Shown one piece after another: positions 10,902-44,930 of a stretch of 64,000 nucleotides of DNA (positions are counted from its first letter, which is position 1; each line of letters starts with the position of its first letter). Position numbers and translations under genes: made by a program. The stretch is from the NCBI RefSeq assembly GCF_001045555.1, contig NZ_LFBU01000002.1, forward strand, positions 930,001 to 994,000, read 5' to 3'. Under the pieces are notes generated by a model. That model did not search any database. It worked only from the letters and a program-made list of their open reading frames with translations, and was not told the origin of the DNA. The DNA is from Marinobacter subterrani. Lineage in GTDB: Bacteria; Pseudomonadota; Gammaproteobacteria; Pseudomonadales; Oleiphilaceae.

Positions 10902-10908
10902 CTCGCCC

Positions 10909-11256
<348 letters not shown>

Positions 11257-11466
11257 CTTTTATTCCCCTCATGTGAAGTCTGTCATTCTCAGCAGATGTC
11301 TTTTATAGCCAAAAAATCTTAAACCTCACTTGTCTTCTCCAGACTTTTCTGCAGGTATTTGATTTTGCTTCTTTTCTTTTTCGTAATCTCAGCGCTTCGT
11401 TGAATCCGCCCCCGTAACCTCTTGTCATAAAAGGAACTTTCCCGCGTGTGGCGCTGTTTGCGGCGC

Positions 11467-43649: not shown

Positions 43650-44485
43650 AAGCCTACCTCGACCTGATGCAGGACGTTGTCGATAACGGATTCAACAAAG
43701 GTGACCGCACCGGCGTAGGCACCCGTTCGGTCTTCGGTCGCCAGCTCCGGTTCAATCTGCAGGACGGTTTCCCCCTGGTAACCACCAAGAAAGTCCACCT
43801 GCGCAGCATTATCTATGAACTGCTCTGGTTCCTCCGGGGCTCCACCGACAACACCTGGTTGCAGGAGCGCAAGGTCTCCATCTGGAACGAGTGGGCCCTG
43901 GAAAACGGCGACCTTGGCCCTATCTACGGCAAACAGTGGCGCAGTTGGCAGTGCCCGAATGGCGAGGTGGTCGACCAGATCAGCGAGGTCATCGAACAGA
44001 TTCGCGCCAAACCCAATTCCCGCCGCCTGATCGTCTCGGCCTGGAATCCGGCGGAGCTTCCGGACGAATCCATCGGGCCCCAGGACAACGTCCGGCAAGG
44101 GCGTATGGCGTTGGCGCCCTGTCACTGTCTGTTCCAGTTCTACGTAGCTGACGGCAAACTCTCGTGCCAGCTATACCAGCGCAGCGCGGATCTGTTTTTG
44201 GGCGTGCCCTTCAATATTGCGTCCTATGCGTTGCTGACCCACATGATCGCCCAGCAGTGTGATCTGGATGTGGGTGAGTTTGTCCACACATTCGGCGACT
44301 GCCACCTGTATCAGAATCACCTGACCGACGACATTGTCTTCGAGCAACTGAAGCGGGAGCCGAAGGCATTGCCGAATCTGGTCATCAAGCGCAAGCCGGC
44401 GAGTATCTTCGAGTACGAGCTGGAGGACTTCGAGTTTGAGGGTTATGACCCTTATCCAGGTATTAAGGCGCCTATTGCCATTTGA
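43646..44485 (+). CDS. thyA: Thymidylate synthase
   Basis: ThyA converts dUMP to dTMP using methylene-tetrahydrofolate, yielding dihydrofolate that FolA (next gene) reduces. The 279-residue product has [49 protein letters not shown], the active-site Cys159 in [31 protein letters not shown], and [13 protein letters not shown]. The start ATG 43646 overlaps the lgt stop. The 445 bases to folA contain two cruciform-type repeats. Confidence 0.97.
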
Positions 44486-44523
44486 GTTGCTATCGATAGC
44501 CAGTCCTCTTGGCTTGGTGGCGT

Positions 44524-44634
44524 CGGTGGAGCAGGCTGGGGCTTTCCGAAAAACGCTGTGAATACGTCCGTGTACGCTTGGCTCCGCCATCCATGGCTCC
44601 GCACATTTTCGGAAAGCCCCAGCCTGCTCCACCG
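44524..44634 (-). repeat. Cruciform-type repeat element, copy A
   Basis: A 111-bp element with perfect 29-bp inverted arms (44524-44552 and 44606-44634) and a 53-base core. The 26 core bases at 44580-44605 are the exact reverse complement of 44787-44812 in copy B, so I assign it to the minus strand relative to B. The core holds GCCAT-CC-ATGGC and a second small pairing, ATACG-TC-CGTGT. There is no T-run after the right arm, so it is not an intrinsic terminator. No reading frame in it looks real. The arms share almost nothing with those of copy B apart from the last eight bases beside the core. Confidence 0.92.
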
Positions 44635-44757
44635 CGTCCGGACTGACGGAGATGGAATTTCCCGAATTCTTGAATGGGTGGCCATTTCGTTTCTCATCAA
44701 AACCTACTCAATGCTGGCAAAAGTGGGTTTCAGGTAAGCTGACTCCACGATTGAATC

Positions 44758-44869
44758 GCATCAGGGCGGGTAGGTTCCTCCAAAAATGTGCGGAGCCATG
44801 GATGGCGGAGCCCAAGCCGCGCATGGATGCCTTGAGGCGTTTTTTGGAGGAACCTACCCGCCCTGATGC
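44758..44869 (+). repeat. Cruciform-type repeat element, copy B
   Basis: A 112-bp element with perfect 29-bp arms (44758-44786 and 44841-44869) and a 54-base core. The core starts with the 26 bases shared with copy A in reverse (44787-44812, containing GCCATGGATGGCGGAGCC) and continues with a small GCAT-GG-ATGC hairpin. Each arm ends beside the core in TCCNAAAA, as in copy A; the rest of the arm is unrelated. The 123 bases between the two elements (44635-44757) show no feature. Confidence 0.92.
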
Positions 44870-44930
44870 AGCCCCCGAGTCATGAGCTTCAGAAGTGGGA
44901 TTCAGAGTTTTACATTAAAGGGAGAGAAAG

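Follow-up and report, generated by a model that had tools for sequence, protein, structure and literature searches.

REP/BIME and REPIN repeats are intergenic palindromes with inverted neighbours, in which the sequence of the palindrome is conserved. Compensatory change is the usual proof of a selected RNA structure. A known counterpart of the elements described here is the TwoAYGGAY RNA (RF01731; PMC2864571) which, in the part of that source used here, has a long external stem and two hairpins with (A)NGGAY loops. A part of PMC4333381 describes this external stem as poorly conserved and proposes binding by CsrA. RF01731 and CsrB of E. coli belong to the same Rfam clan (CL00106). Copying from arm to arm is known in the laboratory from quasipalindrome correction in E. 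coli (PMC7202029, in the portion drawn on). Furthermore, template-switch copying has been inferred for RNA hairpins by Monttinen and Loytynoja (2022, PMC8794818), the portion used here calling the evidence for the maintenance of short stems circumstantial.

The window, i.e. the whole 64-kb stretch of DNA analysed, contains two elements (copies A and B) in the gap between the end of thyA (44485) and the start of folA (44931). Copy A (44524..44634, 111 bp) has its GGA motifs on the minus strand, and all of its parts are read on that strand: a 5' arm of 29 nt (44606..44634), a core of 53 nt (44553..44605) with hairpin 1 (GCC-AUGGAU-GGC, 44586..44597) and hairpin 2 (UAC-ACGGAC-GUA, 44563..44574), and a 3' arm of 29 nt (44524..44552). 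A spacer of 123 bp without assigned strand (44635..44757) separates it from copy B (44758..44869, 112 bp), for which the GGA strand is the plus strand, so that the two GGA strands diverge. Copy B consists of a 5' arm of 29 nt (44758..44786), a core of 54 nt (44787..44840) with hairpin 1 (GCC-AUGGAU-GGC, 44795..44806) and hairpin 2 (GC-AUGGAU-GC, 44821..44830), and a 3' arm of 29 nt (44841..44869), and is followed on the same strand by a downstream flank with a motif of the type agCnCCnAAg (44870..44881). In both copies each arm is 100% complementary to its partner. Coordinates and pairing thus agree with the initial annotation of this DNA, which had described two copies of 111 and 112 bp with mismatch-free 29-bp arms, 123 bp apart and facing in opposite directions. 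The 26 core bases TGTGCGGAGCCATGGATGGCGGAGCC, adjoining the 5' arm of the GGA strand, are identical in A and B, and the common part of the arms is TCCNAAAA next to the core and nothing else, also as annotated.

The folding energies of A and B are 10 to 12 standard deviations lower than those of dinucleotide shuffles on both strands. A covariance model of the family (R1), based on 55 copies of this genome with A and B among them, scores the GGA strand at 111.1 bits (A) and 104.2 bits (B) versus 45.6 and 46.3 bits for the opposite strand, although the arms are equally perfect on both. A and B are the only matches of this model inside the window. Two open frames, 44171-44632 (-) and 44652-44885 (+), cross the elements with the reading CAEPWMAEP, and may be annotated as spurious hypothetical proteins.

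A pattern search of the genome resulted in 27 exact matches plus further near ones, and at least 110 distinct copies were found with R1 scores of 67.8 to 114.9 bits. This number is a lower bound, since 150 of 1740 candidates were scored. A search with the core followed by a comparison of arms between loci had been suggested in the annotation, and paired but differing arms proved to be a genome-wide trait: the core is found at 110 places rather than only here, and the arms are near-perfectly paired and all different. When perfect hairpins are read in antisense, R1 gives no more than 49.6 bits, therefore the core is needed for the score. Several of the early counts (arm conservation, arrangements, covarying pairs, flank motif and upstream promoter scan) refer to 55 of the later 110 copies.

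The core is 52-58 nt long across the 110 copies, with one exception of 43 nt, and two NNGGAY loops are present in 105 of the 110 cores. The first base is an A in 214 of the 215 NNGGAY loops, while the second is variable; only 127 of 215 loops are strictly AYGGAY, and loops are often AGGGAY or AAGGAY. In some loci a structured insert of approximately 70 to 100 nt splits the ANGGAY loop of hairpin 1 or 2 after ATGG, while the arms of the element remain largely paired, as judged by eye. This was seen in L136 (near 1505), L138 (reverse strand), L056, L086, L089, L090 (thyA-folA gap) and L233, and by eye the insert in L056, L086, L089 and L090 contains an extra NNGGA hairpin. For the loop inserts, a scan of five loci against Rfam gave nothing at E <= 0.01.

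The stem is uniform in length, covering about 28 bp in each copy. For the inner 26 pairs of the 110 copies, 2753 of 2860 are Watson-Crick pairs, 62 are G.U, 6 are A.C and 39 are other combinations. The pairing frequency is 0.94 at pair 26, 0.67 at pair 28 and 0.47 at pair 29, and from pair 30 to pair 36 it lies at 0.21 to 0.29, which is about chance, except for 0.42 at pair 35. All 110 arms are distinct. One identical 58-nt core is found in five copies with five different arms, and the maximal arm identity between loci (0.81) is not above that of column-shuffled arms (mean maximum 0.83). In the set of 55 copies, residual conservation of the arms is found beside the core (CTTTCC, AAAA), together with a GG further out, and 28 of the 33 modelled pairs keep their pairing with both sides changed. 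The same set has a flank motif adjoining the arms, CtccaanGTtng upstream and agCnCCnAAgnn downstream, which is clear of shuffles. The motif is near-palindromic, and therefore we do not call it a direct repeat.

The 62 G.U against 6 A.C pairs imply that pairing is selected on one strand, and this supports selection on structure, one of the two causes put forward in the annotation. Among the first 55 copies the excess was found in each of the four gene arrangements (G.U:A.C of 7:0, 6:0, 7:1 and 4:0). It is weaker elsewhere, being 13:8 in 29 copies from other genera and 135:42 when all elements at five loci are taken together (rho 42:18, purK 16:8), the latter elements not being independent.

Like TwoAYGGAY RNA, the elements have two NGGAY-loop hairpins within a long external stem (NNGGAY pairs in 105 of 110 cores), with AAG separating the hairpins and GCGU following the second, and resemble it on the GGA strand alone. 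A scan of the genome with RF01731 resulted in 48 matches, none of which reached the cut-off of 43 (best 42.6 bits; copy B 39.2 bits), and in 20 loci of other genomes the cut-off was likewise never reached. Copy B is matched by RF01731 at E <= 0.01 on the GGA strand only, though the arms are equal on both. Matches to microRNA families in Rfam were rejected; most of them were found on both strands, from the long stem alone, and strand specificity therefore matters. Unlike TwoAYGGAY RNA, the elements remain below the cut-off, are found in more than 100 copies per genome, have a uniform stem of about 28 bp and often carry AGGGAY or AAGGAY loops. As the external stem of TwoAYGGAY RNA is described as poorly conserved in the part of PMC4333381 used here, variable arms are a known trait. 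New here are the copy number, the uniform stem length and the manner in which the arms change.

The ANGGAY loops of the element match the known hairpin form of CsrA sites, and paired ANGGA hairpin loops, as in CsrA-binding RNAs, are the rule in the family (A first in 214 of 215 loops, two loops in 105 of 110 cores). CsrB/RsmX-type CsrA-binding small RNAs likewise have paired GGA hairpin loops, and the clan of CsrB is that of RF01731; in contrast to that type, we find many dispersed copies with two loops instead of one long RNA with multiple loops, and no promoter was recognised. This genome has two PF02599 (CsrA) matches. In the class, CsrA was found in 67 of 72 element-bearing genomes versus 245 of 297 others (p 0.03, listings compared by eye). 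The corresponding numbers are 54 of 59 genomes with strong element matches versus 258 of 310 (p 0.12), and 48 of 49 versus 231 of 265 (p 0.025) for genomes at least 90% complete; one element-bearing genome, 98% complete, is without a CsrA match. Kinship confounds this co-occurrence, and we therefore count it as weak support for a link to CsrA. Strand asymmetry, together with the presence of two ANGGAY loops, speaks for RNA rather than a DNA cruciform as the working form. In the titles and abstract beginnings of the papers listed on CsrA and intergenic repeats, on Marinobacter and repeats and on variable arms there was no mention of the family, and nothing on it was found in those of the matches listed for papers containing the core substring.

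None of the 110 copies overlaps a called gene, genes having been called with a home-made caller based on codon usage. Orientation relative to the flanking genes is even, with 31, 31, 25 and 23 of the 110 copies in the four arrangements. Of the 87 copies that have a gene end next to them on one or both sides, 60 are no more than 60 nt away from that end (median 43). Neighbours less than 400 bp apart are divergent (-,+) in 17 of 17 pairs, one of which includes an insert-bearing copy outside the 110; the chance of this under random orientation is (1/4)^17. All four arrangements are present among neighbours 400 to 1500 bp apart. Since close pairs always diverge, an RNA running across the gap from either strand would carry an antisense copy first and a GGA copy after it. 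No excess of sigma-70-like signals, the promoter type covered by the scan, was found upstream of 55 copies, nor in the 24 A-B spacers of the thyA-folA locus, this genome's included. The 40 nt downstream of the 110 copies are poor in T (1356 A and 703 T of 4400 bases), and an intrinsic terminator was rejected, as there is no T run directly after the stem. A Y1 transposase gene (PF01797, presumably RAYT-like; L253 1360-1929, near 1273116 of contig C1) lies at a distance of 1.2 kb from one of the copies, and a second Y1 transposase gene of this genome is located at C1 1297810.

Within the genus, R1 matches at E <= 0.01 were found in 60 of the 61 genomes sampled, this one included. The number per genome is zero in one and otherwise ranges from 3 to at least 63, and may include antisense readings. 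In the class, 72 of 369 genomes match at E <= 1e-3, at most 10 matches per genome being scored. Of these, 59 are strong (best E < 1e-8), this genome included, while the best E of the other 13 lies between 2.9e-8 and 8e-5; these may be stem-only, because R1 can assign an E near 1e-6 to a perfect stem that lacks the core. In 29 loci from 29 other genomes the arms are near-perfect and differ in sequence (751 of 783 pairs Watson-Crick, 13 G.U, 8 A.C), with two or three NNGGAY in 26 loci and one in three.

The history of the locus was followed in 80 orthologous thyA-folA loci, 79 of them titled Marinobacter and one Halomonas (L093), and the gap is readable in 76 of the 80 plus the window. On a midpoint-rooted tree, the basal lineages have a gap of 12 to 59 bp and no elements. 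In the crown, 24 taxa including this one have A and B arranged in identical order and orientation, and repeated losses are found. Some losses resemble, by eye, deletions between short repeats (L072 versus L073, L060 versus L057). In the comparison of empty sites that the annotation had proposed, the scars legible by eye are those of deletions, and no clean insertion was seen. In the thyA-folA gap of L053, A and B are apparently joined into one at hairpin 1, the spacer missing and the outer arms mismatched (by eye).

At a site upstream of eno (L222-L251) the orientation of the core varies by species, with different arms, nine of each orientation being seen by eye among 30 loci; L224, L227 and L230 carry arm remnants without the core, also by eye. 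The switch may be an inversion, a replacement or an exchange between species, which are indistinguishable here. The eno arms are identical in five diverged genomes, and as both orientations are present at the same site, exchange between species is likely. Furthermore, L061 and L067 are close in thyA-folA, yet 13 of 24 pairs of copy B differ. Such exchange may inflate two-sided counts based on trees, i.e. counts of changes affecting both bases of a pair.

The arms of 25 A and 39 B elements of the thyA-folA locus vary between species, and pairing holds. Using parsimony on a tree of thyA and folA, we counted 43 two-sided transitions, 44 two-sided transversions, 8 G.U, 2 A.C and 8 other changes for A, and 66, 75, 25, 3 and 20, respectively, for B (38 taxa). 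Three coding sequences (L041, L045 and L057) were dropped from the tree count owing to apparent internal stops. The counts also leave out elements that escaped the finder, with altered, missing or interrupted loops (L053, L056, L086, L089, L090, L097, L111, a remnant in L049, and copy A in both L057 and L100). Counts between orthologues, such as that for L061 and L067, are not independent. Pair changes per position amount to 4.0 (A) and 7.3 (B), versus 6.8 and 10.0 per four-fold site. The ratio of transitions to transversions among compensated changes versus four-fold sites does not separate the models alone, whereas model comparison does. At pairs 6-25, 41 (A) and 71 (B) two-sided transversions were counted. 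A 16-state model with selection only gives 1 to 4 (A) and 2 to 6 (B) per 20 pairs at a near-observed mismatch level, and comes into range once copying is added at a rate 20 to 50 times that of mutation. In these pair models, mutation is taken to be rare and species are taken not to exchange DNA.

Two-sided changes are isolated and do not occur in blocks, with 16 adjacent changes versus 12.4 expected (A) and 26 versus 23.5 (B). Branches bearing two-sided changes have a single one in 17 of 35 cases (A) and 17 of 50 cases (B). Wholesale replacement of arms was rejected as the main source of two-sided change, the changes being unclustered; single cases of replacement or exchange exist (L061/L067, eno).

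Trees can mislead when DNA is exchanged between species, and the count was therefore repeated without a tree. The set comprises five loci with 35 disjoint element pairs, chosen by the fewest changed stem pairs and differing at one to three of 24 pairs (an earlier version used 18 pairs from four sets). The 66 changed pairs are divided into 22 two-sided transitions, 16 two-sided transversions (24%), 20 G.U, 2 A.C and 6 others, which means that both sides have changed in 38 of 66 changed pairs between near-identical orthologues. At matched divergence, six settings with selection only lead to an expectation of 1.0-5.1% two-sided transversions (best lnL -109.7), five settings combining copying with mild selection to 12.5-32% (best lnL -93.3), and one setting of copying without selection to 5.3% (lnL -149.9). 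The clearest case is metK, where L197 and L198 differ by one C.G to A.U replacement with the other counted pairs of 24 unchanged. Element pairs one change apart are one-sided in 9 of 15 cases, as is expected early on. The two-sided excess between near-identical orthologues, transversions included, supports the other cause named in the annotation, a renewal of one arm from the other.

On balance we favour an explanation in which the elements are dispersed CsrA-type RNA hairpins, whose stems would be kept perfect jointly by selection and template-switch copying. The transcribed GGA strand would fold into a stem of about 28 bp that displays two small ANGGAY-loop hairpins, which is the form that CsrA/RsmA binds, and the element would most likely serve as a binding or decoy site for this protein. 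The stem would require pairing and little particular sequence, and the letters would therefore drift. In the DNA, a mutation of one arm would often be transferred to its partner, most probably through a template switch of the polymerase on meeting the palindrome, as the pattern of change suggests. Selection for pairing of the GGA strand would then remove most of the remaining mismatches, in line with the predominance of G.U over A.C. Selection alone, under which each copy requires its RNA stem, mismatches are eliminated and compensating mutations arrive singly, like those of ordinary structured RNAs, agrees with the G.U to A.C ratio of 62:6 on the GGA strand, the sharp stem length and the conserved loops; it is nevertheless unlikely, predicting 1 to 4 (A) and 2 to 6 (B) two-sided transversions where 41 and 71 were counted, and 1-5% in six settings where 16 of 66 were found without a tree. 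Strong selection on each stem would also be hard to believe at more than 100 copies per genome. The selection-only models presuppose that mutation is rare, and the route through transient mismatches in very large populations was judged only by hand. That copying acts alone, the stems being mutational products of template switching, the RNA functionless and the covariation a DNA artefact, is very unlikely. It would make two-sided changes common, with transversions about as frequent as transitions as in the tree counts, but predicts equal numbers of G.U and A.C against the observed 62:6, leaves the invariant GGA loops and the common stem length unexplained, and fits the tree-free counts poorly (lnL -149.9 in the one setting tried without selection). 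Selection fails on the transversions and copying on the G.U/A.C asymmetry when taken alone, and together they fit.

A mobile DNA element (MITE, REP or single-strand type), folding as one strand with the loops as enzyme sites and free in orientation, is quite improbable. The even orientation and intergenic sites agree with it, as do match numbers of 0 to at least 63 among the genus genomes, the inversion of 17 of 17 close pairs as in BIMEs, and two Y1 transposase genes, one 1.2 kb from a copy. However, the arms are not common to the copies (0.81 versus a shuffled mean maximum of 0.83), the thyA-folA pair is in place through much of the genus crown, no insertion with target duplication was seen, and the loops have the form of CsrA sites. 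An ordinary MITE was rejected, the 110 distinct arms leaving no terminal inverted repeats conserved between copies. As in REP/BIME and REPIN repeats, the palindromes are intergenic and neighbouring units inverted (17 of 17 pairs below 400 bp, -,+); unlike in those repeats, whose palindrome is conserved, the arms differ between loci and mainly the loop region is conserved. Against the favoured RNA reading we count the lack of an RF01731 match at the cut-off, the even orientation and the lack of a sigma-70-like signal. The weaker G.U excess elsewhere, the mostly one-sided pairs one change apart, the signs of exchange between species and the weak link to CsrA also count against the favoured explanation.

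In the parts of PMC8794818 and PMC7202029 considered, template-switch hairpins and E. coli quasipalindromes resemble the favoured reading of the present family in that copying perfects inverted repeats and can give two-sided changes; unlike in those systems, isolated two-sided changes were here counted at five loci of one dispersed family. We give about an even chance to the broader statement that DNA-level arm copying, and not selection only, has maintained perfect stems in a natural bacterial RNA family for as long as the genus has existed, much of the covariation being mutational, with more than 100 replicates in this genome alone and partly in strictly divergent pairs. If template switching makes much of the compensatory change in long stems, proof of selection needs a mutational null model, and a family with more than 100 loci in one genome and present in many Marinobacter species may be used for measuring the copying rate. 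A further suggestion is that the global regulator CsrA may encounter a large dispersed reservoir of binding sites, the number of which varies widely between species of the genus. Apart from the elements, the window contains an RNase P RNA at 10908-11258 (+), which is its sole Rfam match above cut-off.
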